64,000 bases of DNA from assembly GCA_011033025.1 (NCBI GenBank), contig WFMF01000667.1, forward strand, positions 1 to 64,000. The letters run 5' to 3'. The position numbers and the translations under genes are program-made. Within the stretch, counting starts at the first letter, position 1; every line of letters starts with the position of its first letter. The notes beneath the pieces are model-generated. The model worked only from the letters and a program-made list of their open reading frames with translations. It searched no databases and was not told the origin of the DNA. This DNA comes from Beroe forskalii (taxonomy: Eukaryota; Ctenophora; Nuda; Beroida; Beroidae). Positions 21,901 to 57,600 of this stretch are shown piece by piece.

Positions 21901-24900
21901 CTAGCAATGTCGTTAGACTCATGGCCTCCAGGGATGTGTGTGCAGTAATGTGCTCACTACTGGCAATGTGGCCATGTTAGATTTCTCAGGGGTGTCTTCT
22001 GCAGAAAAGACGGTGTCTCTAGGATGTCTCTGTAAAATTTCTGATTTCGTCCTAAAATTCAAGAGTAAAATCAAAGATTTCGATTAAAGAAAAAACTTTC
22101 TAGTTCGCTAAATAAGCAGATTAGCAAATAACAATGTTACTACTCACTATTTCAGTATAACTGGAACTGTAGTGGCACTGAAAGAGATCACGAGGAGTGA
22201 GGAGGAGGGAACACCATTCACTGCCATCCGGGAAGGTAACGTTTATTAATTGTTCATTAAAATTATGACAACTAGCAGAACCCATGGCCTCCGGCCATCG
22301 TTCACAATTTTTTCGCTTCAGCAATTCGTACAGTATAATGCAGTACTGTAGTTCTTATCAGTGATGAGGTCATATTTCAATCGAGTGTGCCCACTCCTCT
22401 AAGTGATGTCTATATACCTGGTGGTGTCAAACGTCACTGGAACATTCCGATCATCGGTATGCTTGATTGGGTACTGAGTGGTGTCAAAGAGGTCTGTGGC
22501 TATATATAAGGAAGACCGGACAGACAGATATACATTTATTTATTTATTTATTTATATATGAGGAAGAATTATAAGTAGTAAGATTTTACCTATTATTAAG
22601 TTTTTCATTAATTTTCATTTTTGAATGTAAAAAGTCCCCCCCCCTCCAATTCAATTTATTTCCAAGTGACAGTCATCAAGACTTATTCACTTATTCAGTT
22701 GTTTATAGTGCCTAACCACATTGAGTAAAGGAGAATCCATTGTTTTGATTCTAACTATTGTAACAATAGAGTGCTCTAAATAACGCCCTCTTTGTTTGAA
22801 CGTTGTCAGAGGCTGCTTTTCTTTCATTGTTTGAGAAAGCAAGCCTACCAATAAATATTCAAATTTTAGTGCAAAAACTTCAACTCACAAACGACTGTTA
22901 TTTTCGTGTGGGTTGAAAACGTGATATCTCCGATGATCATACAGGCTTGATTGGACAGAAATGAAAATGAAAATGCAGCAGACGATATTTCACTCGAAAA
23001 TGTTCAGAAATAACTTTTATGAAATTTCCATATTTCCCAATAACCCTAAACCCACTAACCCACACATTTCCCGATATAATATTCCCCACTTTTCCCAGTA
23101 ATCCACACTTCCCACCAATCCACACAATTTCCCGGTAATACACAAAGTGTTGTTTTCAGCGTCGCTGCTGAAGGAGCTGAAGCACTCCAATATCGTGGTA
23201 CTACACGACATTATCCACACTAAACGGATGCTAACACTCGTCTTCGAATACGTGGTACGTTTCTATACTTCTATGGGGCGAGTTTTAGTGTTGGTGTGTC
23301 TGTAAACCTGTAAGTGTGTTTTTCTGTACTCTGTCTGTCTGTCTGTCTGTCTGTTTGCTTGTTTGTTTACGTTTCTGTATGTCTGTCTGTTTGCGTTTCT
23401 GTGTAGTTTGTCGGTACGACAAGGACCCTACCAGTATTCGTCTTCGAATACGTAGTAGGATTCTATGGGGCGGGCTTACTGTTGGTGTGTTTGTGTTTGT
23501 GTGTGTCTGACGTCTGTCTGTCTGTGTGGTTGTACATTTGTTGTTTTGTGCCCTTGTTCGTGTTTGTTCGTTTGTAAACTAAGCCCCTTTTTGAGGGAAA
23601 AGGACGAAAGATCATGTATAGATGTATATCTACATTAGGGCGTTTCATAATTTCCCAACTAGAGAACTGTATATTGTTCGGGGTCAAAAGCTATCCTTTA
23701 GGACATAAAAAATTGACAGGAACAAGTTTCAGACGGAAAAAATAATTTTAAGCACGTGCACAGGCCACAGCCATTTTTACCTGTAAAAATCATGATTTTC
23801 GATAAAAAGTTACCCATCTCTTTTTCTGCTTGAGTGACATATTTCTAAGCCTTCTCATCGTGTTCTTCGGCCCAGAAAATGGGGGTATAGGTCCAAAAAT
23901 TTTTGACCTACGACCTTCAGAAGCTTAGTTATCACCGATTTTCATACGCCCATATATGGGCATGCGCCTGTTTTTGCTAGCGTATGCCCATATATGGGCA
24001 TATGCAAATCGGTGATAACTCAGCTTCTGAAGGTCGTAGGTCAAAAATTTTTGGACCTATACCCCCATTTTCCGGGCCGAGGAACACGATGGAGGGTTTA
24101 GAAGTATGCCACTCAAGCAGAAAAAGAGATGGGTAACTTTTTACCGAAAATCATGATTTTTACAGGTAAAAATGGCTGTGGTCTGTGCACGTGCTTAAAA
24201 TTATTTTTTTCGTCTGAAACTTTTTTCTGTCAATTTTTTATGTCCTAAAGAATAGCTTTTGACCCCGAACAATATACAATTCTCTATATGGGAAATTATG
24301 AAACACCCTAATCTACATATCTAGTTGTAAGTGACAGGGAGAGAAGGCGCGAGTGTGTCTTCAGCTGAGTAGCCAACCTGGGCCTTCAATCAATGAATAA
24401 TTCATCCAAAAGTCAGAATTATTTCCTGTGTAACAGTAATCTGCCCGCTCAATCAATGAATATATTGCATCCCTAAAGTCAGCAGTTCTGTCCTCACAGT
24501 GTAATTGCAGTGTCCAGGTCGCCCAACCAATGAATACCTAATGTAGCTCTTCCTGAATATATGCATGGCATTGTCTGTCCAGTCTCCCGATGTAATGTAT
24601 GTCTGTTCAGTGTTCCTATTATGCACCTTGTATAATGTTTATATGCATGCATAATACGCCTTACATGCGTCATGCATGTACTGAATCTTTGGCTTTTGGG
24701 TTTTTACCCTCCAAGTCTGCGAAGATATGTGGTATTGGAATACAAATTACACAGCGATAAGTGTCGACTTGTCGAGCCACGAAATGATTTGAAATGTGAA
24801 AGTCACTGATGTGAATGTCACTGATGTGAATGTCACTGATGTAACCAGATAGACGATAAATTGTGGCTTGATAGTTGAGTAGTTATGACTTGTATGCTTT

Positions 24901-27900
24901 AAGATCGTATAGCTAAGTTACCATCTAACTGCCTTTATTGAGACATTTAGAATTATCTCGGTTCTAGCTGTCTAGATGAATACTGCTATGGGATAAACAC
25001 GGATTACTCATACTTGCTCAATTTAATATAAGGGCAGGGTTATCTTCTGAAGGCTTCAATAATTGATCCATCACACTATATGATAATGCGCTCGCAAATG
25101 ATTTGCCTGAGTAACTGAATTTAATCTAATTGAATTCGTGCCGTGCTCCAATGCAGTTTGAGGTATTGAGTTGACCTCTCTAAACCATAGTTATTACGCT
25201 TCTCAAAGCAGCCTATTACTCGTAATAGCTGGAGGTTCTACAAATCTTAATGCTTTAAAATCAAGTGAGAGCATGTAATTGAGCATGTAATTATGGGATT
25301 CATAATTGGTAAAATTAATCCTCAACTAATAATCCTGCCGTGGAAGAGTAAAAGAGAAGAAGTAAGCTAGGTTTAAAGGCTCCGATGCAATAATCCTAAT
25401 TGAGCTTCGTAATTGAAGTTCTCCGAATTATAAAAACTGTAAAACTAAACATTTAATTACTAAAATGACTGATATGGATGAATATTATTGAATCACCCTG
25501 CTGGGTTCCAGTCTAAGCGGAATAATAAGGCATTGATAAGTTTATAGAATGATATACTGCTATTCAAACGCAGCAGGTGTTATTGTGATGACTCATTCAT
25601 ACAATGAAGATGGTAATCATTGCCACCTGCATTATAACTGGCAGCCTATCTTACCTTTTTAGGAAATTCAGGAGCCATATCATCAGGCATTCCCCCGATA
25701 TTTCCTCCTGATTGTGAAACCTAAAAACTTGTTATGTCGGCCGAGCTAAAATTCTTGCGGAGTCAGATTGCGTGCACTAATTTAGTAGTTGCTGGGCAAC
25801 TATCCTAGCTCTGAAGATAAACCCCTTGGAATAACCTCCAATACTCCTTTCGGATTTGTCAAAGTGACTGTCAAAAACGTCATCAACTGAGCACTTTAAC
25901 CTATGATAATGACGTCACACGCACACCCCCTGCCTGTTGTTTGTACTCCCCAGGGGATTATCCTTCACGTTCTCTCTGTGTTAGTGTGCCGCGCACTCCC
26001 TGGCATTATCCCTCACGATATGTGCGCGAGTGCACGGCATATCCTCATGGATTACCCTTGACTCTGAGTATAGGTGCGCGGCGTACCCTCTATGATTACC
26101 CTTCACCTTGTGTGCGCGGCTCACTCTAATCCCCCTGGGATTACCCTTCACTCTCTGTGAGTGTTACATGTTTACAGAGAGGGAGGAAACCCCAAAATGC
26201 TCTAATGTATGATAGGAAGACTATAATACGTTGGGTAGGGGCTTTGGCGGTTGAGAATGACGTCATTATCATGTTTTAGAATGGTAAATTGTTGGTATTC
26301 AGTCGCCTACATTTTTTAAAAGTAACAGGGTATACTGTTGATTATATTCCCAGCATATGGTGTGATAGCACAGGGTCTTGTTAGACTCTTGACTCACGGC
26401 CACTGTTCATTTACAACTGATGACAACACTTCGGTTTTTGTCGGTTGTTCAACTGAAAATGTTGTCAGTTTACACTTTCTAATTCTCTAATCCGAATCGT
26501 ACACGCTAGAATTAGTATTTCGCTGCTGAATGTATGTATTTATTCATCTAAAACCTCTTTTCTCCCTCAGTCGACTGACCTTGGTTCGTACATGGAGTTG
26601 TACCCTAACGGACTGAAACCTAAGGTCGTGAAGCTCTTCCTGTTCCAGCTGCTCAGAGGCCTACACTACTGTCACAACAAGAAGATATTACACAGGTGGG
26701 CGATTAGAGGAGGTGAGGGGGATAAGAATAGGATGTCCTTGTGATTAGAGGTGGTGTGGAGTAGAATAGGATGCAGGATGCCCTGATTAATTGAACCTTA
26801 TAATGTTTATGGTGTACTGCTATAGGTCTTATATCTTCTAGCCTATAATCGTGTGCAGCTTGATCAAATTTATAATGTCCCTACCTTGAAGCCTGCCTCA
26901 GGAGGTTATCAAACTTGTCATGACATTATTAATAACCATTATGTAATTTCAGAGATTTGAAACCCCAGAATATTCTGATTGATGACAAAGGCGAACTCAA
27001 ACTTGCAGATTTCGGTGAGTGGGTTTTATCCTTTGACTGATTGAACAATATGCTATTGCATTGTTGAAATAAACAAATAAGCGACTTGCAAGTTTTCTGT
27101 CCCTCCAAAAGCATCTCAGATATCCAATAAAACTTCAATACAAACCAATGGTTAGGACCATCCCATCCCACACTCAGCTGTACTTGTTTTGCAAGTTCTG
27201 GATAAAACTACACACTACAATTGGTATAACACACACATTTCCTATTTTTAAACGCGTACACACGTGCAGACGTACACACGTGCAGACAGCACCTGTTGAA
27301 ATCTTAATAAGTATTTCAAGTATAGAGAGGGCCTGCCCAAAGTTTGCAATATACGCCAAACTATGAGATCATTGTCATAGGTTAAAATGGTTAATTGGTG
27401 ATGATGAAATGCTGTTTAAGTTATAGAGGGCCTGCCCAAAGTGTGCAATATGCACAACCTGTGAGATCATTATCACAGGTTAAAATGGTTAATTGGTGAT
27501 GTTTAACTGTCGCTATAGTCGTGTTTTGCGTTTAGTGAAGTGTACTAACACCTTTCGTTTTCATAATTTGATTTATACTTAAAATAAAATACTAAGCACA
27601 GTGTAAGTGTGGTAGGTAAAGTAATCCTGAAAATATCGTTTAGTAAACATGACACGAGCTGAATTTCTGCCAAGAAATCTCAAATGTACGATGCTTATTA
27701 TAAATGTGCATAATATTATGCATTTTATGCTCTGTAAATTTGATATATTTCGTGCAAAACCTCGAGATAAAATGCAATTGATTTAATTTAGGGTAAAATA
27801 ATACAATATTATTTTTACTTGATTAAATCCGATGAACTTATCCAAGTTTTTTTTTAACTGAGCGAGTTAATGTAATCATATTATTGAGTTTAACGAGTAA

Positions 27901-36900: not shown

Positions 36901-39900
36901 TGGTAGTTTTCAGTATACCTTTGTGTTGATGTTCTGATTTTATAATTGAACGCAATACGTGAGATTTGCGTCATCAAAGTTGCAGAATTCTAAAATCGAT
37001 TAGGACCCCAATCTGTGCTATTCAATTGTGCTATTCAATGGAGAAACCTCGCCCCTCAAATCCCAAACAAAAAGCGTTCTTTGCGAAACACCCAGGCCAT
37101 ATCATAATGCAGGTATTTCTGACACGCCCTTCTGTATTCTCATCTGATCCTGGTACCATCCCCTATCAAGTATCGATCACTGACCCACCATCTTTCAGGC
37201 AAATACAGCACCTCTCTATTACTTTATTAACATGTCCACCATCTTCCAGGTATCGTCCGCCGGACGTGCTCCTCGGTTCCACGGACTACAGCACCTCGCT
37301 AGACATGTGGGGAGTGGGGTGTATCTTCGCGGAGATGATCTCAGGGATACCTCTCTTCCCTGGAATGAAGGACGTCAAGGACCAACTCACTAAGATATGG
37401 AATGTGAGTACCAGGATTGCAAATTTAATGCCCGAGTTACACTCACCTAGAATTTCCGTGGCGTGTTGACAGTGAGCCGCGCACAAGTACACCGTGCATA
37501 GAAAAACCGCGCATGTAGGTGGACAACACCCCCCTGTTAGAATATCTCTGCAAATATCTGAATTATACACACCACTCAGTGGAACCGTGGAATATTCATG
37601 AATTCTGGTGTCTCTCGGTCAGTGGATTATGCCCGTATTGCCTTCTGTGGCTTTAAAACTCGTTCCTTGGGCAGTTACGTCTGCGCGTTTGTTTTTCACG
37701 TGATCGAATGCTTCCATGTATTCCGGCCTACGTCAGTAGGCGGAACCTACGACTTGCACTACCTTACTACCGTCTTACTCTGGCACGTCAGACGTCAGTG
37801 TTTGGCAGCCCAACTCTACTCATACATCAATTTCAATGCTTTGTACCTAGCACATACAATGTAAATTGTACAATGTACTAATGTATACTCTGTTATCTGT
37901 ACTCATTCCACGAATATGATGTATATTCGCCAACAGTATACATAGCATTAAATAAGTATAGTAATATCCTGTAAATTGCTAAATATCGTCTGTAATTTAA
38001 TGATCACAATTACTATGATTAATGTTATTTAACTCTCTGTTTCATATTTAAGATTACTACATAATGCTGTTATGATCACTTACTAACTTACTGTAATTTA
38101 CGTTATTCAACTGTCTATTTTATAAAACGTTATACTACGTAATCATCACTTACTAACTTAGTATAATTATTCAAAAGTTAATTTCTCTATTTTATATTGA
38201 ACTTAACTACTTAAACCCCCCCGAAAAATAGGTAATTCACATATCATCAACTTACTACATTGCACTATGATTATGGCATCATTTTACCCGCCTATTTCTC
38301 GTGTGAACATGATATTTTAATATTTCTGGCTCGTACGTGACCAGTAATTGTGTAATTTGGTTATCTGGCTGTTTTTGTGCACTTTTCCCATGCCAACAAT
38401 TTGCTATTATTATTATTCTTATTATGTACCATGCACTACTAAATGCTAAAATGTAAGCTCTTCTTATCACACACTCACACAGGACACCATGTGTCTTGTT
38501 GTTTGAGATCACGCGAAGTGCTAATAGAAATGTAGCAATAATTGAAGTTGAATGGTGCTTTCAGTAAAGTTGACATTATTTCTTGAAAAATGCTACCTAC
38601 GCTGCCACCTACTTAAAACTTAAATATGTGAGTGGGCGGTTGATTTAACTCCATTTAACATTTAAACTTATACGATTTTACGGCTGTGAATATTAACTTT
38701 CTTGAGTTCTTGGAACCAAAATACTAACTTGGCAACTTACGGTGCTATATATGAAGGTATGAAATATAAATACTTTGCCGTCACCCTCTCACATGGCCTA
38801 TACTTAATCAAATCAAGGATTGTGTGTACCAGAACGCTTCTCAAATTCTATAACTTTCCCCTAAATTTGGTTAGAATGTGTCAAGATATTCTGTGATTTA
38901 AATACCAGTGAGTTAAATGCCAATCGGTGACATTTAAACCGCTATGTCTGTGAAATGTACGAGGGTATCGGATGTGATTTTCTAAGTTAGCTCTTCGTGC
39001 GGCTATTGGGTATACCTACAAAGTGTGTTTCTCAACACAACCCCAGATTTGAAGGTGTGTGTTTGCGCATGAAGCGCGCGCTTCCCTACGAGACAAAACG
39101 TGGTAGCCAAGTGCGCGCCACGCGTGAAACACACAGGGATATACGTGTTTAGCAAAGTTAGTTCATCTATCAGTGGTATTTGGGAGTGTAAAGATTTGCC
39201 TAAAACTCGTAAAAAATTTTCCCAATTTTGACTCAGTTTATTTTTATACCAGTACCTATAATCCATAAGAATCACTGTGATTCCGTTACTCCTTTGATCA
39301 TCTATACCTATTGTGGTTATAATATCCATACACATCTAATTACTTAATTATTACACACCTATATGTACCATATACTCATATATAATATGATGTACACAAC
39401 TAGTAGATTCATTAAATTACTATTGTATAAAGAATAGACTGGCTGATGAATGCCGCAGGGTTTTTGTGCCACTATGGTTAATATATACATTACTGCCCCA
39501 AAAGCTCTCAAACACTACGATTCTACCCCATAACATGCCCATATTTGGACTGTATGAAAGGGATTCCGCGGTAGATCAATTAATATTAATCTCTCTTTGT
39601 GAGTGTACGGTCGAGTAGCTACTTCCTTACTTTCATTAATAATACAGCAGTAGTAGTATATTGAATGGGAGAAACACCACATTCTATTGCAGGGAGATTA
39701 ATCTGTAATCTGTCACTGAAGCACAGCTCTGTCATTCTCCTTTATAAAGTTCTAATCAGCTTCATTTATGAGATGTGACAGAAAGATTTGAGGTATTCGC
39801 GGAGAAAAATGGAAATATTTCGTGAATTTGTCTTATGAAAATGTATTTGAGAGGCTATAGGATGAGGTATTCGAACCGAAAATGTAAAACCTGGTAAAAC

Positions 39901-41499: not shown

Positions 41500-43000
41500 A
41501 TAAAGTTTGGATTTGGCCGCCAGTTGCCCTTCAATTTCGTGTGCCAATGTGCATTACCAAATTACTATTCCGCTAAGTTCTGCTGCCGTTATTCAGATCT
41601 GACAATTAATTAAACGTCCATGTGTACATATTATTTTGATTTATTTTAGAAATTTTATTTATTTGAATGATATAGACTCAATGTTAGAAATCATAGAAAG
41701 ATAGATGGAAGCGTATCAAAAAGAATGTATCAAAGGACCTGAAATTATCAATCACATTTTTTCTCGAGCCTCGTCAAAAAACAGTGACGTTGTTTCGAAG
41801 TATTATTCTATTCGGCATAAATAAACGTTACATATTGAAGCTGATCTGTACTACTATTTGTTGCTGTTTGAGCCATTATATCTGTGCAAGATATACTAGG
41901 AGTAGGATGTCAATGTTTTGGCCATTTTTGTGGCACATAGTTCAATCATACTGGGATGTTGTTGAATTATAATAAGCTGAAATAGGAATTTTGTCGAATT
42001 AGAAATATAGAATTCGAAGATTACGAATTTTCTGATAATATGATCCAATTGTTAGGGCATATTATCTTTTGATGAAGTGACACTTTTTGTAGAGGCAGGG
42101 GCAGTTCGAACTGCAGTTTGCTCGGCTTAGGTTTGCGCCAAAATGTAGGCCGCGCAAACTGCGGTTCGAAATGTCACCGTTAGCACTAGAATATCGAGCT
42201 AGATTCAATAAACTGACGATGTAGGACATGCCTAGAGAACAAAAAAGACTGACTCTAAATAACTTGAGTTTTGTATTGTTTCACGTTGAAATAGCGAAAA
42301 CTACAGTTTTTGAGATAACAACATCCGATCATATTCTGTTTTGATTTTAATATACATATTATGCTAGGAGTGACAAATTATTTTCGAAAATTACCGCGGT
42401 GTCTCGACCTTTTGGGGCGCGGCGTATTACGCCGCGCTTGGATAATTCTTAGCCGCGCGTGATAGCGCGCAAATGTGCTTTTTCTATGATTTGTATAGAA
42501 AGTAAATTTTACATTTGCGCGCTGTCACGCGCCACAAAAAGTACCCCAGCGCGGCGTAATACGCCCCGCCTCAAAACGTCGAGACACCATTACCAATGAT
42601 CTAGTTTTCGACCAATTCTAATGACTTAATATACGATTGGGGTTGCCGCTATGTTAAGTGTTATACAGTGTGTAATATTGATTGCTAATGTGATTGTCGA
42701 TAATATTATTTGTAATTTGTCCTTTTTAAAATTCCCGAATTTCATTTCGAACAGCAATTGAAAATCATTCGTAATGTTTTCCAATTTGAAAAGGGGGTTC
42801 AATGCACAACATCATGTGTCATATTGCAGAAATTCTTAGCTATTAAAAAGATTTATAAATATTAAATAATATTAAGAAGAATTAATCATGGAAAGATAAA
42901 CTTAAAAAGAAAAATTAATTCATACTGTTTATCAATATCGTATGCATATACTATGTAATAAAATATACTAAAAATTACAAATAAAGAAATATTATAATTT
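41500..43000. other. Spacer between convergent kinase and RRM1 genes
   Basis: No gene recognised. The frame at 41784-41972 is short and featureless. An inverted GCAGTTCGAACTGCAGTTTG / CAAACTGCGGTTCGAA pair lies at 42108-42168, and a larger GC-rich palindrome at 42397-42590. Confidence 0.5.
42397..42590. mobile_element. GC-rich palindromic element with GGTGTCTCGAC ends
   Basis: GGTGTCTCGAC at the left is answered by GTCGAGACACC at the right. Inside, GCGCGGCGTATTACGCC is repeated in inverse. The centre (42460-42520) has inverted GCGCGCAAATGT / ACATTTGCGCGC. The terminal words resemble the GGTGTTTCCAC end of the element at 1521-1671, so the two may be related families. Confidence 0.65.
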
Positions 43001-43004
43001 GTTT

Positions 43005-43010
43005 TTTATT
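43005..43010 (-). terminator. Poly(A) signal for RRM1
   Basis: TTTATT on the plus strand, that is AATAAA on the minus strand, about 165 bp after the RRM1 stop codon. Confidence 0.55.
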
Positions 43011-43173
43011 GCCATTGATCAATACTCCAAGAATTTAAAAAATAATTTGCGGCAGATTTAAAACAAGTATCCAGGCACATTGCAGATAGTTCCTTACAAA
43101 TCACCTGACCTCCTTGAACCACGTGACATAGTCACCTGACCTCTTGTGACCACGTGAATTGAGTCCATGGTAC

Positions 43174-43269
43174 TTAGCCGCTGCACATGACACAGTTTTC
43201 CTTGTTGGCAAGGGAGCATGCTGCAATAGCTTCCCTTTCAAGCTCCTCCTTACTCTTCTCTTGTAGGAC
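43174..43269 (-). CDS. RRM1: RRM1 terminal exon with CxxC
   Basis: Encodes [20 protein letters not shown], then [11 protein letters not shown] and stop TAA. The C-terminal Cys-Val-Met-Cys pair is the shuttle that re-reduces the active site and is essential in eukaryotic class I enzymes. The preceding exon ends in a Lys/Glu-rich linker that is longer than in human, which accounts for part of the extra length. Confidence 0.92.
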   Translation of the reverse strand, partial: VLQEKSKEELEREAIAACSLANKENCVMCSG

Positions 43270-46200
43270 CTGGAACGGTGTATTCCTCAATTTCATGAAT
43301 GAAACGCCTAAGCATGGGATTCTGGGTCTAACGGCTTACAGTAGGGGTATGTGCTACAATATGAAATGAAACTCATCATTAAAAACCACCTCCATCCTCC
43401 CCCCCTTGAATAACCGATTAATATCGGCGAGTAATATGAACGCACCTGTTTCTCGTTGTCCCCCTTGAGATCGTAGCTGCTCCCCTTGGAGTTCAGGGCT
43501 GCCTTCACCGTTCTCTCATTATCCTTCTCCGTCTGCTGTTTCCTCATCTCCTTCAGCTTAGTCTGATCCACAGTGAACTGGATGGCTTGTACAGCGGGCC
43601 TGGTTCGCAGGTAGTACATTCCAGTCTTCAGACCTGGGGTGGAGTTCAACTTCATGAGGTGTCACATAATGGAGAAAACATAGCAGCCAGCATGCAGCAT
43701 TCATAAAAAATCGCTTCGGACATACTATTGAGTTCTAAAGTTTAACAGTTTCTCGAATTCTTGATCAATTTCAAATCTCTCGATCAAATTAACTTCAGTT
43801 TCACTGAAATACAGCTTCCTTTCCCCATTGAAAAGAATGCACTGCTCACCTCGTTTCCAGGCATGGAAGTGCATGCTGGTAATCTTCCTGGGTTGCGGGT
43901 CTGCCAGGAACAGGTTCAGAGACTGACTCTGGTCAATGTACGGTCCTGCGAGGCAAGGCTATCAGTAAAGTGTATAGTGTAACATAACCAGTAGGGATCT
44001 ACTCATTCGCAGGTTATCAAAGTATCAAACGACTGGGTTGAAAAGAAAACACTTCCAAAGAAATAAGGTCGAGTTACCCCGTCCCCCCCCCAACTCAGAA
44101 TAAGATGTGTATTGTTTCTGCACTTCACAGTTACCTCTGTCAGCAGCCATGTCAATGATGCACTTCTGAGAAATCTCCCAGCTGGTCTTGTAAAGTGCTT
44201 TGATCTCATCGCTGATACCTTCAATCCTCTGGATGGAGCTCTGGTAAAAGCAGGGACTATGATAATGTCAATGATATGCGTGTATCTCCGGGCTTCTCAC
44301 CAAAGGGTACGCTTGATTGAAAGCGAGTAATTTAAAAAGTGATCGAGCGCATCAAATCCAGCGACTTGTGTAAAAATAACCTAATTATCGAACATTGTCC
44401 GGTATTTCTCTAAACTTGCTACCCACCTCTGAATAGAGCCGTTGTCAGCTATCATCTGCTGCTTGATGTCGCTGTTCCACACTCCCAAATCAGTGAGGTC
44501 TCGTAGCAGATGCTGGTTGATAACCTGGAAGGGATGCCATGTTATTGATACTGACCCTAACTTTGACAAAACAGTGCCGAACAGCAACCCTTCTTTAACC
44601 TTGCCCCCTAAAAAGCCTAAAAGCTGTGTTTTCATTGAGCTTCTCGATCTAATCTCAAACCAAATCATCTGCGCTCCAAAATAAAAACGAAGTGATTTGG
44701 AGCCTCCAAATCACTTCTTCTCTTCTACCCACCTGGAACTCCCCACTGAGGACTCTCCTGAGGTAGATGTTACTGGTGTAGGGTTCTATAGCCTCGTTGT
44801 TACCCAGGATCTGAGCAGTGCTGGCGGTAGGCATGGGGGCGAGAAGCAGAGAGTTACGAACACCCGTCCTGTGGAGCGGAGGGTGTGAGATTTCAGGGAA
44901 TTATGGGTGGGAATTTGAGAATATTAAGAAAAGCCTGAATCCAATATCATCCAAGTGAGCAAGAATCAATCCTAGATCTGGTCATTTAAATTCGATATAC
45001 CTGCTGATCTGTTTTCTGAGGGTTTCCCAATCCCAAAGGTCGGTGGGGGTCACATTCCACATGTCAAACTGCAGTTGACCTTTACTAACCGGACTTCCTG
45101 GGGATGATTAGAAGGTGAAAAGCTGTACGGAATTGAGTACCTATCTTTAGTTAGTAGGGCTAAACAAAGATGGCATAAATAATGCTTGATAAATACTATC
45201 CTGGATCACACGGGAACCGTTCTATTTCACAATTAAAACCGATAGTCCCCCGCCTCACCTTTGTAGGACTCGTAATGCCCTAGTTTCTCCGCCAGTTCAG
45301 CGCTAGCCTCCAGTGCCCCGTAGTAGATAGTCTCGAATATCTTGATGTTGAGCTTCTTAGCAGCATCACTGTCGAATGGGTACCTCATGAGGAGGAAGGC
45401 GTCAGCTAGCCCCTGAAATGTGTGTCACGTGATCAACGGGAACCAATGAAATTTAAGAATAAACAATGTGAAATTTGCACTGATTGCTATGAAAGTATTC
45501 TGTATTCTAATGGCGAATTCCACGGTTTACGGAACGGCACAGAGAATTTTAATAACCGCATTTCTTTTGATGAAAACCATTGAAGTTCTTAAACAAACCT
45601 GTACTCCGATACCAATGGGTCTGTGTCGAGTGTTGGATCTTCTGCATTCCTCCAGCGGGTAGTACGACACGTCAATCACTTTGTTCAGATTCCGTGTTAC
45701 CACCTGGGGTCAGAACTCTAAAAACCCTTGTAGAACAGTGTTCAAACTAAGGAAAATACAAGTGAAACCATATGGTCGGTATTCGGTAATCTGATTTAAA
45801 AGCACAGGAAAGGCTCATCGTGTGAAGAAGAATTACCTTGGATATCTCCTTGAGTTTCTGGAAGTCGTAAGTCTTATCATTCCTCACGAACATGTTGACA
45901 GCGATACTAGCCAGGTTACACACGGCGATTTCATCGGGGGAGGAGTACTCGATAATCTCTGGAAAAGGAAAAAAATGATAGCTTCATTGGTTGGATATTT
46001 GCAGATCTTAAATTCAAATTCAGGTAGCAGTACAACGAAGACAACCCGTAACCCAAATTAGCGCAAACTAATTCAGGTTTCAAATCTACGGAAACAAAGT
46101 CGAGGAACAATTTCACTTACCAGTACAGAGGTTGCTGCACTTGATAGTTCCCAAGTTCTGCTGATTACTCTTCCTATTACTCGCATCCTTGTACACCATG

Positions 46201-49200
46201 TACGGAGTTCCTGTCTCGACCTGACTGTCAATGATCGCAAACCACAGTTTCTGAGCTTTGATGGTTTTCCTGGCCCGTCCCTCCCGCTCGTACTTCTCGT
46301 ATAACTTCTCGAACTCGTCTCCCCAGACGTCTTGGAGACCGGGGGACTCGTTGGGACAGAACAGGGACCAGTCTCCGTTGGCTTCCACCTGGTATGAAAC
46401 AATGGCTTACAATTTTAATATGATATGAAAAAAGTAGAGGCTTAGTCAAGTGAAAATGTCACCCCAGGATCTATGAATGAGTGTAGAATGCATGCATGGA
46501 TTAAAATCGTGGAAGATATGCCTTAAAATTAAACAATTACCATACCCTTTTCATGAAAAGGTCAGGTATCCAGAGGGCGTAGAACAGGTCTCTAGCCCTC
46601 GCTTCCTCCTTGCCAGTGTTCTTCCTTAAATCCAGGAAGTCGAAGATGTCAGCATGCCACGGCTCAAGGTAGATGGCAAAGGAGCCTGGTCGCTGGAGAC
46701 AGGGACATAAGTTAGAAGGGGTGACAAAAGATGAGTCTTAAATGCAAATTCACAAATAATGCAGATACCAGAGATTGACAGTCATGTTCTTTTAGAATTC
46801 TTCAACTGCATTTATAAATATTAATCTAACAATGGGTATACTGAGTCTAGGTATTATCATTGAGCGTGACATGAGCGATCTCAGTCTGACAGCCCCTCCT
46901 CGTTACCTTATTGCCGCCTTGATCCACATATCTGGCAGTGTTATTGAACACTCTTAACATGGGGACAAGGCCATTGCTGGACCCTCCCGTGCCCCAGATG
47001 TAACTCCCTTTGGCCCTAATATTGTGCACATTCACTCCAATACCTGACAGTATCGCGAATTAATTTTGATGTCCGATAGGAATCATCATAGTGCACAACA
47101 GCTTGAGGCAATCATTGATGTGACGAAAGTTATAAGCCTCGGGCGTAAACATCAATATTATCATAACACAACACATAGAAAGGTGCTTTGAAAACAGAGA
47201 AAATTTAAAGCGAAAGTATTTGAATGTAGCATGGTGTCAAGTATTGCTTGAAGATAAAATGAGCATTTTAGGAAATTTGAAAAAGCGTTTCATATCCGAA
47301 AATTTGAAAAATAACAGTGTGCTGCATTTTGCTTGGTGAGACAAGTCAAATTTGGGAACTTTTTCGATCAATTTCATGGCAGTGAGACAAGTCTATATTT
47401 TTCAAGCATCACTTGGCGAGGGCAAAGAAAGACAGAGAATTTGTGTAATGTCTCACCTCCTGCTGACTTGCTTATCATAGCACACTGTTTTAGGGTGTCG
47501 TAGATGCCATCTATACTATCGTCTGTCATGGTGAGAAGGAAACAGCTGAAATGAGGTGGAGTTGGTGGATGGGTACCTAGACTCAGTATACGAAATAGTA
47601 TGGGGCAGAGAGGAGAGTGAAGGAGGGAGCTGACATGGAGATGATGCGATGTGAAATCCAGCTGACATGTGCAAAGATAGCTGATCAGGAAATCTTACGA
47701 TCCAAACATTGCAAAGCAGGATTAGAGACTCTGATTCATCGCACCCCCTCTGTCAACTCCCATTCCTCTCCTCCTCCCTAACTCTCTCAATCCCACCCCT
47801 ACCTTGCCTCCCTGGTCCACATAACGTGTCGTGTTATTGAACACTTGTAACAGTGGTACTATCCCTGAACTAGTCCCATTGCTCCCCGCAATGACACTGC
47901 CCCTACAGCGCACATTCTGCATGGATACGCCACAGCCTCCCGCATGGGCTGCCAGAATGGCGCAGTTCTTTAGTGTGTCGTATATATTGTCCATACTGTC
48001 GCTGCACTGCATTAGGAAGCAGCTGAAAATAATGAGCTATGGTGGGGACGATACTGTGCTACGAAATAGACCCTATGGCGTCATAGAATTGCCATTTCCT
48101 CTGTTTTGACCTTGAAGTGAGCAAAATAACGTTGATGGTTCATTCATGCATCATTAACACAACGTTTCCAGTTTCAAAACTGGCGTTTTGGGACAAAAAT
48201 GTGACGAAATTCTTCAAATTTCGCAAATTACCGCGCTACGAAATACAAAAAGCCGCGCGCAGCGCGCGCGTTTTACCGAGATAACAATTTTTCCTTGGTT
48301 CACAAAAATAAATAATGCATTTCGCGCGTTACATACACGACAGTGCTCTTTGAGCGGGAAAGAGCCTCTCTGAACAAAGCCGTGAGGTCACAACTCAACA
48401 CCCGGCAGGCTACTTGAGTAATTAACGTGTATAAATAGAACAGGAAGAAAAGCAAAAGTTTTGCCGCCTTTTCTGCCTGAAATCTTGGCAAAAATAACCC
48501 CTATTCATGCATTTTATAGCTAGCATAAAGGAACATGCAGCCTATGGATTCTGAAACAATATTTGAAATCAATAGCTGATGGTTAGCCCGACAAAACAAG
48601 GAAACAGCTGGCTAGCTGAGGTCTCACAGTTCCTGAGTTAAAGAGAGTAGGAGATGCATGAGTGAAGAACTTCTCTGACATTAGGTTGTAAGTTTCAATG
48701 GCAGCGTCAATGTCATCCCAGTGAATACCTGAATTGAAGTAGTAAACAGACATTTTCAACGATTCATTCTACATTTGATACAAAATGAGGACTCAAGTTC
48801 AATGATAGCGCGAGTAGTTTCTTCCAAAGTTTCAATTTCCAAGAAATCATCGGACTTCTCCAATTTCAACAAATAAACCCAGTGTCAGCCCTACTAACCT
48901 AGAGAGACTCGCATCAACATGTGCTGGGGTCGCTCAGCAACCTTCCCATTGATCTTCAGTAGGTACGTCTTTTCAAGGGTCTTTATTCCGAAGTAGTTGT
49001 AGTTGAAATCCCTGAGGTGTAAATAAAAATGAAGTCCTTTCAGGTTTACTTTGTTTTAGCATAAGAAATGTATGAAATTTTAAATTTCAACACAAAACAA
49101 TGGACTGACTCAGGGACGTAGCCAGGGGGAGGCGACACAGGCGGTCACCTCCACCTTTTTGGACAGATGATATGAAAATGTTGTTCATTTTGATAAAATG

Positions 49201-50952
49201 AGAGCTATGAGCCAACAAAATAAAACATTAAACAGGTTTTGAATGTAACTTGCCGCCCCCTCTTCAGAAATCTGGCTACGCCCCTGGACTGACTGAGTGA
49301 GAAGGGATAACCCGGGTCTCAATCAATCCCAGAAAAAGACCGATTTTCGAGTTCTGACAAAACCCACCTATCGTATATGAGGACAGAGTTGAGTAAGTCC
49401 TTGTGCTCCATTATGAGGTTGAATAACTCAGTGGATATCAGAGGAGCATGTCTGTTAGTGTCAGGGTTAATGTGGCTGTGTAGATCCTCCATCACATCAC
49501 TGAATACCTGACAAAAAGGTCACGCGTTTAGCTTCATACAACTATAGTTAACTTTGGTGCAAAGTAAGTTGATTCGATGATTTCCTTTTTCGGTAACATA
49601 GAAAAACATCCCAAAACCACCATTTACTATGCGATGGATCATTGGATCGTTGGATCATTGGAGACATCAAGCTATCTACAAATTACAGAAAAGCCACACT
49701 TCTCTCAGCTTGCTAATTTCTAAATTCCCAAACCTTCTTGGTCTCCTTGTGCAGGTTACTACAAGTTATCCTAGCAGCTAAGATAGCGTAGTCAGGGTGT
49801 TCTGTAGCCAGAGAGGCAGCTGTCTCAGCTGCCAACATGTCTAGCTCAACTGTAGTTACTCCTTTGTAAACACCGTTAATCACGTTCTTTGTGATCGTGT
49901 ACGGAGGAAAGAAGATTTTTTACGTCAATCAAATATAAAGAGGCAGAGCAGTAAGTTGTCATCAAAATCAATTTGCCATACTAATCATAATCATTCATAT
50001 CAATTATTGTGTAAAACTCACGGGATCCACGAACTCAGTGTTGAGGTTGTACATCAGCTTCTGAATACGGGACGTGATCTTATCGAAGTGAACCACTTCC
50101 TTCCTCCCGTCTGAAAAGGATGTTATAAAAGCTGAACTGAGATAAACTAGAATAGTTATCTGGCAGTCATATCGAACTGCTAATTATTTGTTTCCACTTT
50201 TCTAACCGTTTGAATGTAGAAGTTAGGTATCCACTATCCATACAAAGTAAATATTACACACCTCGTTTACAAATTTGCATTTCATCGCAACTTGGCTGCT
50301 CTACTACAGTCAAAAATCCTGGCATCCCTCAATAGTATTTAAATTTTAAAAAATCTGCAACTTAAACTCTTATAGATTAAACTAAAAACTGATCAAATCG
50401 TTGATGAGTGAAGACAACCGAAAATTAGAAAATATGACCCATCATTGACTACGAATAGCCCTTTGTACTACGCTTCTCTCCAATAGAGAAACGTAATAAC
50501 CAATCACAGAACAGTATATTGTCACGTGACACTTGATAACGCAGTAGCAGTATAATGAGCATTACAACAGTGGAGAGAGCTGGCATGTTTGGGCATGTTA
50601 GTAAGAGTTAGCACTGTTGTAGTGTTTAGAAGTGGGCATGTTAGGGCAGGTTTGAGGGAAGGGAGATTTGAATGCGTCGACAGAGGGGAGTTGGGAAAAA
50701 CGTATCAAAAGGCGGAAAATATGAAAAGGCAAAACGATCAGCAAAATTTCAAATGAAAATGGGCATTCAATGATTGAAATAACAAACCATAGATAAACCA
50801 TAGTTTAGTAATTTGTTCAAATACTCATGTTTAAGGCTGACACTGATAATTAGTAATTAAGGTTTAACTGTCAAAGTAATTCAATTAAAACCATATTTAT
50901 GTCTTATTATGTAGAAATATTTCCACAACTTACCTCGTTTGAAGACGAACAT
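43174..50952 (-). CDS. RRM1: Ribonucleoside-diphosphate reductase large subunit (whole gene)
   Basis: Class I ribonucleotide reductase alpha subunit; with the small R2 subunit it reduces NDPs to dNDPs in the cytosol. Exons in transcript order: 50952-50934, 50110-50022, 49886-49734, 49507-49368, 49011-48899, 48728-48608, then either 48022-47803 (A) or 47545-47457 plus 47043-46907 (B), then 46692-46546, 46388-46121, 45958-45837, 45703-45599, 45412-45259, 45097-45001, 44868-44733, 44524-44427, 44238-44135, 43945-43850, 43633-43446, 43269-43174. The phases sum to 823 residues with B and 821 with A (human 792). Landmarks: ATP cone at the N-terminus ([18 protein letters not shown]), first redox Cys in ASCFL (about 213), NLCTE (Asn, thiyl Cys and Glu at about 422-426), second redox Cys in VCNLAS (about 439), [15 protein letters not shown] loop, the Tyr-Tyr radical relay in GMYYLRTRP, and the C-terminal CVMC thioredoxin-reactive pair. 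All catalytic residues are present. The acceptor of the third exon is uncertain by four codons: an ITK-like stretch lies upstream of the only AG. Confidence 0.95.
46907..47043 (-). CDS. RRM1: RRM1 alternative exon B2 (allosteric loops 1 and 2)
   Basis: Encodes [20 protein letters not shown], then [20 protein letters not shown] and DQGGNK; donor GTAACG, phase 0 out. It corresponds to human residues from about 247 to 292, including loop 1 and the start of loop 2, which read the effector and set substrate preference. It follows exon B1 (phase 1). Trp in SYIWGTG replaces the usual Ala of SYIAGTNG. Confidence 0.9.
47457..47545 (-). CDS. RRM1: RRM1 alternative exon B1
   Basis: Begins with the last base of a Ser codon and encodes [20 protein letters not shown], then [10 protein letters not shown] (phase 1 out, GTGAGA). 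It is the close match to the standard eukaryotic sequence after the first redox Cys, with the DDS motif (human D226 region) and SKSAGG. B1 plus B2 total 226 nt and replace exon A (220 nt). Confidence 0.9.
47803..48022 (-). CDS. RRM1: RRM1 alternative exon A
   Basis: One exon covering the same segment as B1+B2: [73 protein letters not shown]. It starts one base before the redox Cys codon, like B1, and ends phase 0, like B2, so A and B are interchangeable in frame. Against B it lacks one residue in the TMTDDS stretch and the Asn of GGNK in loop 2, changes SKSAGG to AAHAGG, and adds several cysteines. No stop codon or frameshift, and good flanking acceptor (TTTTCAG) and donor (GTAGGG), so it looks functional and not degenerate. 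The redox Cys and the Asp/Arg of the effector site are kept. Confidence 0.88.
48608..48728 (-). CDS. RRM1: RRM1 exon 6, upstream of the alternative modules
   Basis: Encodes [40 protein letters not shown] and two bases of Ser. The reading frame demands that it end at 48608, where the next bases are CTGTTTCC and not a GT donor. The strong GTGAGA at the GT-V codon (about 48617) is inside the conserved RPQL segment and would remove it. Read-through gives SCFLVLSG and a stop. The 3' boundary is therefore non-canonical or misunderstood. Confidence 0.75.
49111..49286. mobile_element. 176-bp hAT-like MITE in an RRM1 intron
   Basis: Starts CAGGGACGTAGCCAGGGGG and ends CTGGCTACGCCCCTG (inverted ends). 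It is flanked by an exact 8-bp direct repeat GACTGACT (49103-49110 and 49287-49294). An 8-bp duplication with CAGGG termini fits hAT. No coding capacity. A degenerate relative lies at about 17350-17505. Confidence 0.8.
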
Positions 50953-51522
50953 GATTCTTGTAAGGGAGCTAGAACCTATGAAAAGTGCAATTGTTGATAT
51001 CAATTAGGAAGATAATTAGAAATAAAAAATTTTGCGTGAAGTGTTCTGAAACCAAAGATGAATTTTACTATCTTTCAGATCTGAAGGACACATTTCAATT
51101 AGAAAAATAATTGATTTGAATTAACCTACGACTGATTAGAACAAAGTATTGAAACAACCACAATGAATGAAAATCAATATCAATCAGTCAATGCTTTTTA
51201 CAAAATTATTTTCTCTATTGCATAAATCTTAAAACAGAAAACGTTAATCAGTCTAACAGACAGGGGAACTCATCTTTTTGACAAAATTAAAATGGACCAT
51301 GCCTCCATATTCAATCAAGAAATACTCGCCAGGTACATCCGAAACTAAGACGTGAAGGAGTGAAATCCGAGTCAATTTAAATAATCAATAGGATGACAAT
51401 GTTAGCAGGGAAATATTTGAAAAATATATATGGTCAAAAATGTGCGCTCAAAACTTTAAAAAGAAAAACAACAATCCGACTCAATCCTTCAATAAAACAA
51501 ACAATACCCCACTCAAAACACT
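50953..51522 (-). other. Nup160-RRM1 spacer with candidate trans-splice or 5' UTR acceptor
   Basis: About 570 bp separate the Nup160 stop from the RRM1 ATG on the same strand. On the minus strand, GCACTTTTCATAG ends at 50976, 23 bases before the ATG. It is a good 3' splice site for a 5' UTR intron or a spliced leader. No other gene seen. Confidence 0.35.
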
Positions 51523-51678: not shown

Positions 51679-54600
51679 CTGGGGTTGATTATCAGCTTTC
51701 AATTGAGGGTTATAGCTAGTACTTTAAACTCTCAAACTCTAATACATCAAATGTTGTAGCAACACCTGGTGGGTGGAATATGGTGAGTGGAATGGAGGAG
51801 AACCAAGTCAGTTCTCCTCGATACACAAAAAGTGTTGCAGCGTGTTGAGGGTTATAACTCATTTAAATCACAAACTCTGATACATCAAATGTTGTACAAA
51901 ACTCCTGGTGGTGGAATATGGTGATTGGAGGAGGCCAATTTGTGATCTTACTAAAAACTAATGGTTTAAAGCTCATCGGCTTATAGCACTTTAAGTTTAA
52001 ACTGCAACAAAGGGTCCATGCTATTAATTCAAATCGAAATCGTGCGCTTACAAAATCATTTCTTCGAAAACTTTAACTTTGCGTGGTTACTTTCTGTAAC
52101 ATGTCTTGTGAATAATATTAATTAAATTTGGTCGAGAAGTGTCTTCAATCTATTCTCTCTTGACTGTGAAAGCTGTAAGCCATTTTGGCACACCTCAAAG
52201 ATGTCGTTGACCTCAAAGACGTCGTAGACCGAAGAAATTGATTTTCAGTAAAGAACATCATCGTTGAACACCTCGTACCATAACGAGTCAATTAAAAGAA
52301 TATAATTGAAAACTCATCTCGTCCAAATTATGGGAACAATATTCAATCAACGAATCCCTGAACTGAATATAATCAAATTTGATTTGATGAGTTTAAACGT
52401 TTTCTATTTTGATAGCTCTTATTTTGTTTTATTTTTGCTTTATTACAATAATCATAATACTTAGTTTGATAGCTCTAGATGGAATCAATTTTAGCATTTA
52501 TGAAAGATTTCGCTGTAAGCTATTAATATTCAAGAATATTATTTCTAAGAAACCATCCTTTTTAAAGCTGATCACACCAGTCACTCTTAATTTCTCTCAC
52601 AAGCATGATGTTTGTTGTACGCTTGGTGTTAACCCTTGTTTGTGTTTCGTGGACTTTATGTACCAATGGTCCAGAAGCAGATCCATCCCATCTTCAGGAT
52701 ACAGCCTTACAGAGTCCACAGGAGGCTGGAACCACAGAAGATGACACATTAAGCATGACCAAAAACAGAAGCTACCCTGAACGAGTGAAAAAGACAAAAA
52801 GAGAAAGGAAACAGGAGCAGAAGATGGAGAAAGAAAGAGAAGTGAAAAAGAAGAGCATAGCACTTGAGGACCTTGATCCTTATTGTCAAAGAGCTGTTCC
52901 AGATCCAATCCCTGACGAGTTGCTAGTTTCCAGAATCCACATCAGAGACAGGGACCAGTGCTTACAGTACTGTATCCAATACGTATGGAGATGTAAAGTG
53001 TTTTCCTATGATTTCACAAAACAAGAGTGTGTCTTGATCCAAGATGACAGTGACTTAGAGGAAGAAACCGGTCATAAGTCATCATCTGACATAGTGACCT
53101 ACAGTTTGCCATGCTTAGAAGCCGCTGAGACAATTGAGGCAGGATTCCACATTGGCGATACAAACCTCACCAAATGTTTGAAAATGACTGAATGTTCTAG
53201 TTATCAAATAAAAGAGCCTACAGTCGCATGGGGAAAATGTTCAGAGTCCCCGGATAAGTGGATAATAAGTCCGTTAAGAAACGTTGATTTTGAAGGAAGG
53301 AAACTTGTCCGAATTTTTCCACATGCTCGCCAATCTTACGCAATGGCAAGTTACAACAATTTTGATAGAGGGGTTGCCTGCCATAAGTCAATAACATTAG
53401 TAGAAGCTCTAGAAACAAGCGGCGTGGCATTGAAGGACAAATTACTAGGACAGATGTTTTTAGTAGACAAACATGAAAGCAAAAACATCTACACAATGAA
53501 AGAGTTTATTCAAAACACCATCGGACTGAGCAAGTACTTTTTCCTGAAATCCAAGTCATACGATCTATCAGTTGATAAAACCGTCGATGCTCCTGTGAGC
53601 GTTGCAATGCTTTCCAACCTTCGGATCTTTAAACCCCAAAATTGGACCCACACATGTTCCCTGATAGCCCTAAAAGTGAGCAACAGCACAGTAGATAACC
53701 CTGACAATCTGCCCTTTCTCCTAGAGGGAGGTAACATTACCATTCGGTGTGATGCAGGGTTTGGGGTGGAGGAACTTGACTTTGCATCAGAGCAGGAGGT
53801 GGTTTGTAGAGAGAATAATACGGTTGTAAAGCCGTGTGTACCAATCCCGGTTACTGGGACTACTGCCCTTACAACCTCTACAAGTTCACATCTCCCAGTG
53901 ACACTGACACCACCAGTTAACTATGCAATAAGTCCTGTGCGCTCCTTTTGTGGCACTTTAATGCTGTCAATTCATAGCCTCATTCTGAATTTTTAAAGAA
54001 AATCGTTCGAAGAACTAAGAAGATTCTGGATTTCAAGAAGTAGTTGAGTAGTTGCAGGTTAGGCCCAAATCTCTGGAGGATTTCAGAAACAGGAAGGCGA
54101 ATAAATTAACAAATCCGGGGAGGATTGGACTTAGTACTTACTAAATTAAACAGATCTACGCTGATTAGTTCAATAGTTAGCATTTTAATGAATGTGAAAG
54201 TATGAAGGATTGCATTACATGAGAATTGAGACCCTCAGTTACCTGATCGAATACTGTGTACGGCACGTAAACAGGAGGCAGATTGCTTTGTAGGGAGTTT
54301 TCAAGCCCGAAGTCAGCTGTTTCTCTCCCGGCTACAGCTCCTAAATAACCTGGGAGGGAGTGAGGTTGAGAAGAAGTGAGTTCACATTCGATTGATTTGT
54401 CAATTTGATAGTGTTTAATGAATATGTTGACTAATATTTTGTTTATAATTATTCTTTGTTTTGTTTGATGCCATTCAATAATAAACCCTTCGTATTCACT
54501 GCTCACCTATAGCCAGCTTCACGGCCAGCTTCAAACTATCATACTGAGCACACAGCCTGATAGTAGCCTCCGGATTAACTTCTTTACACAGCTTCAGCAA

Positions 54601-57600
54601 CCAGAAGGGTGGAGCGAAGGGGGCACTGAGCATCTGGGCCAGGACCTGTTTCAGAGCAGACCAGTCACCAGACAGAGCAGAGACTTTGGTTTGGAGGTAC
54701 AGCCAGGCTCTGTCAGAGGGGGAGAGGTCGGCTTTGGTGGGAACATCGTTCTGATTCAACCAATCCGTCAAACCTGGGAGGGAGGGGTGGGAATGAACAA
54801 AAGGGGGAGGTATAAGCAAGGGTACATTCAGAGCAAGGGGGTAGGCCTGAGCAGGGGAGCAGGCATGAGCAAGGGGCAGGCATGAGCAAGGGGTAGGCAT
54901 GAGCAAGAATTCCTCAATTGAATAATTTTACCATTATTATAGAGACACAGATTATGAAATATCAACAGATCAATTGACAGTACAGACAGGACTGGACTAT
55001 CTACAAACTTCAGACTATCATTGTTCGTTGCCACAATAATATGCCATTCAGATAATATTGAAAGATAATATTGTTTGATAAACTATTGTGATTTACACGA
55101 AACAAGTTCTCTGATGCGGCGAATTGATGAATTGAAATTATCGAGTAAACTTATAATAATTTGTATGTCAATATTACAACATCTCAGTTAGTTGCAATTG
55201 TTTCTGAATTCTGCCTCCAGTCGGCGATCTCAACTCTTCAGCTCTTATTATTGAACTTCAATATATGCCAATATTCGTGTCACATACAATCTTTTGAATT
55301 ATCTGTCACTATAGTCCTGTCACTATAGTCCTGCCACTATAGTTCTATCACTATAGTCTTGTCACTATAGTCCAGTCACCATTTGTCACTATAATCCTGT
55401 ACCTGGTGGGAGGTGGTTGTGTGTAGTGAAGTGTTGAGACAGGTTGATACACCGCGCAGTAAGGGATGCCAGAGGGGGAGGGAGGTCGTGGTAGGAAGCC
55501 AGGAGGAACGCTTGATCGAATAGTCCGCAGTTACACAGCAACCCCAAAACCTGGGAGAGGTGGGTTACACAACAACCCCAAAACCTGTGGGTGATGGGTT
55601 ATAGTGATAAGAAATAGAAATATAAATTACATAATATTATGTCAGACTTCCCTGATAATAAATAAGAGCCAAGAAAGTGATATGGGGACAACTTTAAATG
55701 ACACTTCATTGTTCATCGACAAAACAATCAGAAATCTTAGATCTAAAGTTCAAATGATTCTTTAGAAATCATAATTACCAACCCATTTAAAAGGCATAAC
55801 GACTTCATTAAATCACATCTTTATCAAAATCATCATGTACAACTCAAATGAAGAAAGCATTACAACATCAGTACCTCAGTAGGGGAGAGGTTGTGTAGTT
55901 TGACAGAGTCGGGTTTGATGGCTGATATCTTGATAAGGGAATCCACAACCAGATACCCTGCCCTCAACTCCTTAACTGATAGTAGGATGAAATCATGTTG
56001 GGATTCAAAACGTAAAGTAGATATGCCTCATTCCGAAATTATTCTCAAAATTTGTAGTTTCAAAATAACAGTTCGATTTTCGAGGGCCATACAACCGAAT
56101 AATTGCATGGATTGTTTACTGTCAAGAATGAGATGTTTCCACATGATAAAAGTTTTCACGTGCCCACTCACCCGTGATGAGAGACAGTTTGGTGGTAGAT
56201 TTCTTGCTCCTCTCGTCTGAACTCCTGGGTCGTTTAGGGGAGGCGTTTACTGCTACTCTCACGTCAGTGTACTGCGTAGGTTCCAGGATCCAAGCCTGGA
56301 AAGAATAGATGATGTAGGAACATAGAATGTATCGAACCGCGAATCAAACACAGCGCGAGAAATCTAATCTTTTGGATAACAATCGACTGGAACACCAAAA
56401 GCAGAGTATAACAGCTAGGAAGCTAGATAAAAAGTGCCAATACTGTACTAACGCGAAATAGAATTGTTCAAAAACAAGACGAAACTCACACAGCGCTAAG
56501 CTACGAGGCAACCACGGATCACTACACAACGTGAACAATACAGTTATCCTCGTCAATGAGAAACGGAGCAGTACCCCCAAACGGAATGACCTCGTAATAA
56601 TTAACAAACTCCTCTCTGGCTCCGCAAACGACCGAGGAGTTATAACGACACAGGGTGGAGTAGGAGTTTTGTGTAACCTTGGCAACCCACCGCAACCCGA
56701 GACAGAGCCAGGATGCAAGGAGTTTAGCAACACAGTGTATCATGAGTGTGGGGAAAAGAGTGGTTTGATAACATACAGCGAGCTTATCTGGTGTAAATTT
56801 GGGTACAACGACTCAACAAGTTGGAATGTACAGTGTATGATGAAGTGATGTATCATGCCTTTATTCTAAGATTTGATGATAACTGAAATGGAATATATTG
56901 CGAACTTACCCAAGCCAAGTGAATCTATTATGATAAACAAATCGATCATAAAACGAGCATTTCACATCTCAGAGTGTGTAATTTCAACTCACGTCCTGTT
57001 CTCTCAGTAGTTGCAGGCAGCTGATAGCACCCAAGTAACCGTGTAGCTGCTTGGTGAGAGATGCAGCACCTGGTAGTTCACTTTGTAACCGTAATACGTG
57101 CTCGTAGGAAGCTGCAGCGGCGTGCTGGTACATCTTATTAAACAGGGCAGGCGTGATTTTAATATCTGATATAACACGGTAGGCGTGATTCTTAGATCTA
57201 ATAACCCAGGGCAGGCGTGATTATAACATCTGATAGAAAAGGGCAGGCGTGATTCTTAGATCTGATAAAACAGGGCAGGCGTAACTTTTAAATCGTATAC
57301 AACAGGGCAGGCGTGATTAAATAGGGATCTTGTGATAGAATATATTTCCAAAGTCAAGACACTGAAATAGGGCCTTGGTAAGAAACAAAAGATTACTGAC
57401 ACCCCATCATATCATGTCAGTTTTGAGTGACCAGGGGCATCAGACCCGAGAAAAGGAAGGTGATATGGGAGCAGGGGCGGGGCGTCAGATATTTACTAGA
57501 TCGGATGCAACTAACACAGATCTCACAAAAACTTACCTTATTCTGGATGTGGAAAGCGACAAGGAGCTTGTAGTAGTTGTTATTCTGTCTCAAATCAGAG

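Follow-up and report, generated by a model that had tools for sequence, protein, structure and literature searches.

The RRM1 gene and its two modules

We analysed a window of 64,000 nt from the ctenophore Beroe forskalii (assembly GCA_011033025.1, contig WFMF01000667.1, positions 1 to 64,000). On its minus strand, from 50952 to 43174, lies a complete RRM1 gene, encoding the large subunit of class I ribonucleotide reductase (RNR). Similarity to RRM1 was found over the full length, with residues 1-775 matching human 3hnc in phmmer (1334.9 bits). Between the shared exons E6 and E8, residues 217-292 are encoded in two alternative versions arranged in tandem, first exon A and then the exon pair B1-B2 (modules A and B). 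The product has 824 residues with B1+B2 and 822 residues with exon A in their place, each one more than the 823 and 821 residues given in a preliminary description of this DNA. The module exons are as follows.

48022-47803, minus strand: exon A, 220 nt, encoding residues 217-290 of the 822-residue form, without loop-2 residue 291; open frame, strong splice sites, member of the A-type clade
47545-47457, minus strand: exon B1, 89 nt, first half of the standard module, from redox Cys218 to Gly246/247
47043-46907, minus strand: exon B2, 137 nt, second half of the standard module, with loop 1, the start of loop 2 and the end GGNK

The preliminary description had stated that both versions start one base before the redox-Cys codon and end in phase 0, and this was confirmed. 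The first base of A and of B1 is the last base of the Ser217 codon, and the next codon, TGC in A and TGT in B1, is Cys218, so that the redox cysteine is present in both modules; the ends of A and B2 are in phase 0. Eight subsets of the three module exons are possible. Only {A} and {B1,B2} stayed open to the end and gave a full-length product, and the six other combinations reached a stop at 225-299 aa. The claims that each module yields a complete protein between the same flanks and that A and B cannot stand together therefore hold, and exactly one of the alternatives for this segment is compatible with a full-length product. The reading frame thus makes the two modules mutually exclusive at the level of productive messages.

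Next, A and B were compared as coding sequences. Identical amino acids were found at 45 of 74 aligned codon pairs, and the differences at codon positions 1, 2, and 3 numbered 26, 17, and 47, respectively. In 2000 simulated neutral copies, generated at the observed nucleotide divergence with all change placed on A and uniform substitutions, amino-acid identity reached at most 33, as against 45 observed. Because 7% of these copies contained no stop, the open frame of A taken by itself is weak evidence. The codon usage score of A in its true frame was 0.01, above all 109 intron pieces (best, -0.15). Synonymous divergence (dS) between A and B was saturated by one method.

A search of the assembly (216 Mb, 1134 contigs) with PF02867 gave 10 exon matches, all on this contig, and this locus is the only RRM1 detected by that search. 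No second copy of the stretch 46600-48800 was found in the assembly. A second RRM1 copy or retrocopy as the source of A was rejected on these two results, the 2.2-kb region being single copy. For R2, one locus was found (five matches on one contig). The B-form protein showed 92% identity to the Mnemiopsis leidyi protein (93% of the query covered) and 88% to Bolinopsis microptera isoform X1. The remaining coding exons of the gene are listed below.

50934-50952, minus strand: E1a, first coding exon (MFVFKR), as in Bolinopsis X1 and Mnemiopsis
50022-50110, minus strand: E2, ATP-cone
49734-49901, minus strand: E3, ATP-cone; acceptor CCTCCG/TAC where AG is expected
49368-49507, minus strand: E4
48899-49011, minus strand: E5
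48608-48728, minus strand: E6, shared upstream exon, ending in RPQLA plus AG
46546-46692, minus strand: E8, shared downstream exon
43174-46388, minus strand: E9-E19, remainder of RRM1 through the C-terminal Cys pair and the stop

A candidate alternative first coding exon, MQICKR, was noted at 50280-50262 on the minus strand. It ends in AAACGAG/GT, as E1a does, and its product would also have 824 residues; an alternative promoter is possible. An Rfam search of 43000-51500 and a tRNA search of the whole window gave no match.

Outside RRM1, an uninterrupted open reading frame of 463 aa with a PAN_1 domain (E 2.7e-6) lies at 52605-53996 on the plus strand, and a match to the Nup160 C-terminal TPR (E 1.7e-7) at 54499-54927 on the minus strand. 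Two protein kinase domain pieces were found on the plus strand, at 36966-37469 (E 6e-10) and at 26457-26741 (E 3.3e-5, below the curated cut-off); with about 10 kb between them, they perhaps belong to one gene. A long, nearly perfect foldback at 23642-24304, with exact pieces of up to 51 nt, is probably a mobile element, and 13410-13997 is a repeat array in which the unit GGTGTCAGTGATACGGCAGAC occurs in both orientations.

Exon A in relatives and its ancestry

The position of ctenophores near the animal root is debated. In Bolinopsis microptera, isoforms already present in the databases and named as RNR isoforms carry either module, X1 and X2 having B and X3 having A. Outside the module, X2 and X3 are identical (119/119 and 517/517 residues). 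The preliminary description had proposed looking for a second copy of this segment in the RRM1 of other invertebrates, and the annotated X3 provides one. The B module of the window is identical to those of Bolinopsis X1 and Mnemiopsis (76/76 each), the A module matches X3 at 62 of 74 residues, and the flanks match Bolinopsis at 108/119 and 426/468. These values indicate that A, though still open, changes faster than B and also somewhat faster than the remainder of the protein. X3 (P0001) and X2 (P0121) start at MEDLYNH, without the ATP-cone Pfam domain present in X1, which reflects either an RNR lacking the activity site or the way the records were annotated.

We also searched proteins of about 41-130 aa with a profile of the two A modules. 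Eight matches were obtained, of which four (P0234, P0235, P0236, and P0240) were A-type by reading and four (P0237, P0238, P0239, and P0241) B-like. The four A-type fragments run on into intron-like residues past GGK, the first of which is always V, as expected if GGK/GT is a conserved donor. In the B-like fragments P0237, P0239, and P0241, the sequence corresponding to E6, or to its final residues, is continuous with the module, so an intron before the module is not universal. The protein database searched was clustered at 90% identity, and A isoforms of other animals could therefore sit hidden behind B representatives. No relatives of A were found in viral contigs (81 stretches) or genome contigs (39 stretches).

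In a tree of 92 rows, the six A-type rows (the window, Bolinopsis, and the four fragments) formed one clade with support of 100/98. Its position outside the animal rows was weakly supported, and constraining A with ctenophore B was not rejected (p-AU 0.153). The profile E-value of A was about 1e-27 against yeast and human chains and 7.5e-7 against Escherichia coli, and a bacterial origin of A was not supported, the profile favouring eukaryotic chains. When E. coli NrdA was included, its row was placed within the A group with a branch length of 9.7 changes per column, a placement that we take to be long-branch noise. The preliminary description had named frameshifts of A in related species as the sign of a dead duplicate. 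None occurs in the five other A-type sequences, and with X3 carrying A and matching X2 elsewhere, a dead duplicate is rejected: A is conserved as an exon type of its own.

Residue changes at the specificity site

We next compared the residues of the six A-type rows with those of 232 non-A rows (232 of 236 kept), using the B numbering of the window, which equals the human numbering here (Cys218, Lys243, Arg256, and Asn291). According to passages of a paper on human RRM1 (PMC5819950), loop 1 comprises residues 255-271 and loop 2 residues 286-295, Lys243 contacts the specificity effector at its alpha- and beta-phosphates, and loop 2 has one residue more than in E. coli, with an extra contact to dATP. 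The differences between A and B announced in the preliminary description, including GGNK becoming GGK and the extra cysteines in A, are all present. Set against those passages, they fall on the specificity site and loops 1 and 2, as had been claimed.

Four changes are fixed in all six A-type rows: Met228 (Ile in nearly all others), Ala242 (for Ser), Thr283 (Ala in 91% of the others), and the loss of residue 291. Position 243 is Ala in five of the six, P0240 retaining Lys; in the non-A rows it is Lys in 67% and Gln in 33%. Other functional residues are retained in every A-type row that reaches them, namely Asp226 and Ser227 (5/5), Arg256 (6/6), and Cys218 (3/3). Among the extra cysteines, that at 223 is general (5/5 rows reaching it), that at 248 occurs in three of six rows, and that at 257 only in the window.

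Relative to human RRM1, A is without one residue at 224/225 and without residue 291, and in the alignment both one-residue gaps coincide with gaps of E. coli NrdA. The number of steps from Gln to Arg in loop 2 is five in human (Gln288-Arg293) and four both in E. coli (Gln294-Arg298) and in A. Since A is eukaryotic in type by profile, we read the match in length to NrdA as a change of geometry and not as ancestry. A structure model of A kept the RRM1 fold and superposed on 5tus_A at 0.9 Å.

The proposed switch and its alternatives

Taken together, the data make it likely that ctenophore RRM1 carries a conserved pair of mutually exclusive modules, with altered effector reading by the A form and, less surely, a stem-aided switch. 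Intact frames, two productive combinations, conservation of A in relatives, and annotation of both kinds of isoform in Bolinopsis form its observed basis; use in this species, control by the stem, and an effect on the enzyme are what we propose. One transcript would contain exon A and the other B1+B2, each module supplying a stretch that starts at redox Cys218, covers the specificity-effector site and loop 1, and ends within loop 2. The A enzyme would keep the catalytic parts, mostly in shared exons, and would read effectors differently, being without Lys243 and having a loop 2 shorter by one residue, of E. coli length. In a weaker step of the proposal, the branch-point zone upstream of B1 and the intron downstream of B2 would pair in an 18-bp RNA stem. 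By looping out B1-B2 it would let E6 join A and A join E8, an open stem would give B, and wrong exon combinations would end in a premature stop.

Several points weigh against this proposal, among them those on the stem and on two splice junctions in the following paragraphs. Splice use in B. forskalii is read from genomic sequence, the role of the stem is proposed from one species, and a ctenophore origin of the four A-type fragments is presumed. The X3 isoform of Bolinopsis is a predicted database entry, and both X3 and X2 are N-terminally truncated. Loss of Lys243 need not be drastic, given Gln243 in a third of the non-A rows and Lys243 in P0240. The alignment behind the structure model consists almost entirely of B-type sequences, from which a good fold for A was to be expected.

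The stem is formed by a perfect 18-nt inverted repeat in the two introns bounding B.

47574-47591, minus strand: first stem arm, at -46 to -29 relative to B1, in the branch-point zone of the intron; pairs perfectly with the second arm
46836-46853, minus strand: second stem arm, in the intron that follows B2, at +54 to +71; pairs perfectly with the first arm

In 200 dinucleotide shuffles of the region the longest inverted repeat was 14 nt, and none of the 200 exceeded this length; the complementarity around B1-B2 is thus beyond chance. The stem pairs formed with a probability of 0.86-1.0 in folds of 806 and 1421 nt, and the other four of the five complementary pairs listed were shorter or imperfect. 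The window has 63 listed inverted pairs of at least 14 nt, several longer than 18 nt, many of them nested or part of repeat arrays. The mere presence of an inverted repeat is therefore nothing rare here; what is special is the position and uniqueness of the 18-nt pair. We see about an even chance that the repeat is not a splicing switch but a mobile-element remnant, a local inverted duplication, or a promoter of circular RNA from B1-B2. The abundance of other inverted pairs favours this alternative. Against it, the 18-mer occurs exactly only twice in the 216 Mb, both times here, and so is not a common repeat (with up to two mismatches, 20 matches compared with 18 for a reversed control pattern), and the arms enclose a conserved exon pair from the two introns that bound it.

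Splice sites were scored with a matrix trained on this gene with A, B1, and B2 left out. The acceptor of A scored 8.2 and its donor 8.8, values reached at 55 and 42 of ~64,000 minus-strand positions, respectively; the acceptor of B2 was poor (-0.5; 1697 positions as high). AG and GT are present at the sites of A, B1, B2, and E8. GT-AG was found in 19 of the 22 listed junctions, the exceptions being E2>E3, E6>B1, and E6>A. As assembled, E6 is followed by CTGTTTCC without a GT donor, so that the flanking exon lacks the functional donor expected of mutually exclusive exons. The best donor candidate, CAG/CTGTTT, scored 2.4, compared with 5.8-12.0 for the training donors, and among other GT sites for E6 inspected by hand none keeps Cys218 together with the B frame. 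The end of E6 and the start of the intron read CAG/CTGTTTCCTT, and a 13-nt direct repeat, CAGCTGTTTCCTT, is present at each end of the E6>B1 intron.

48598-48607, minus strand: first 10 bases past E6, CTGTTTCCTT, the same as the first 10 bases of B1; no GT

The junction at 48608 given in the preliminary description is thus correct for the protein but is not a canonical splice site in this sequence. At the E2/E3 acceptor, CG is found in place of AG. Either the assembly is faulty at E6 and E3 or the gene is oddly spliced there, and the missing GT of E6 may be an assembly fault. That the odd sites are real, with a CT-AG intron bearing 13-nt terminal direct repeats and either a GT-CG intron or a downstream AG at E3, is in our judgement unlikely. 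The direct repeat at both intron ends fits it, as does an in-frame GT-AG alternative in which E3 starts at 49886 instead of 49901, with loss of five ATP-cone residues. On the other hand, all six introns of the R2 gene in the same assembly, read by eye, are GT-AG, and a copy of the B1 start after E6 would also be expected from polishing of the assembly with spliced reads. No paper on ctenophore splice sites was found in a search of an open-licence library. The E6 donor is needed for B as well, and since B is certainly a functioning exon pair, the donor fault is no specific argument against A.

It is quite improbable that two isoforms are made of which A is catalytically ordinary, with tolerated drift behind its changes and a switch that serves expression control, for example through unproductive splicing. 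The retained Asp226, Ser227, Arg256, and, in the three A rows reaching it, Cys218 would fit this, as would the modelled RRM1 fold and the premature stops of six of the eight splice combinations; against it, all six rows share the changes at the nearly invariant positions 228, 242, and 283 and lack residue 291, which drift would not produce. We regard it as very improbable that A is an exonized or decaying duplicate unused as protein in this species: the non-GT donor of the shared E6 and the faster evolution of A than of B would agree with that, but A is open, in phase, and strongly spliced by score, exceeds all intron pieces in codon usage, is a distinct exon type in five other sequences and an annotated isoform in Bolinopsis, and shares its donor problem with B, which must be used.

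One paper (PMC3267527) describes RNR as the master regulator of deoxynucleoside triphosphate (dNTP) balance and states that alterations of its allosteric sites skew the dNTP pools and lead to higher mutation rates. If the proposed switch is true, it is a natural, conserved splice switch in the allosteric core that gives two versions of the enzyme differing only there. The A/B pair would then be a direct test of the part played by loop 2 length and Lys243 in substrate choice, and of why an animal wants a second setting. Alternative RNR modules were not found among the titles and abstract openings listed for RNR with splicing or for ctenophores in an open-licence library. A fuller reading, which we hold only tentatively and consider less probable than its opposite, is that one ctenophore gene makes two RNRs by swapping the allosteric core, with a hairpin hiding B1-B2 and an A form of NrdA length that has a weakened grip on the effector phosphates and follows other dNTP rules. 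Since the specificity site lies at the dimer interface, mixed A/B dimers would add a third behaviour under that reading.

Finally, the locus was compared with known systems. Human RRM1 aligns over the whole length and shares redox Cys218, Asp226, Arg256, and the shared exons, but has a single version of the module, whereas A in the window is without residue 291, without one residue at 224/225, and has Ala in place of Lys243. E. coli NrdA has the same two one-residue gaps as A, a similar start (ECSDSMDAI versus ECGDSLDSI), and the same loop-2 spacing of four; it differs in that A is of eukaryotic type overall and the NrdA row is too long-branched to place. As described in passages on PKM (PMC6595688), exons 9 and 10 are likewise mutually exclusive exons of equal role that give two differently regulated forms of one metabolic enzyme. 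PKM is another enzyme, however, and the RNR module comprises the redox Cys, the effector site, and the loop start, with one alternative split into two exons. The Dscam type of RNA-structured exons, with a docking site and selectors, also shows long-range intronic complementarity around alternatives (PMC6071210), whereas here one perfect stem surrounds one alternative, with no competing selector set found.
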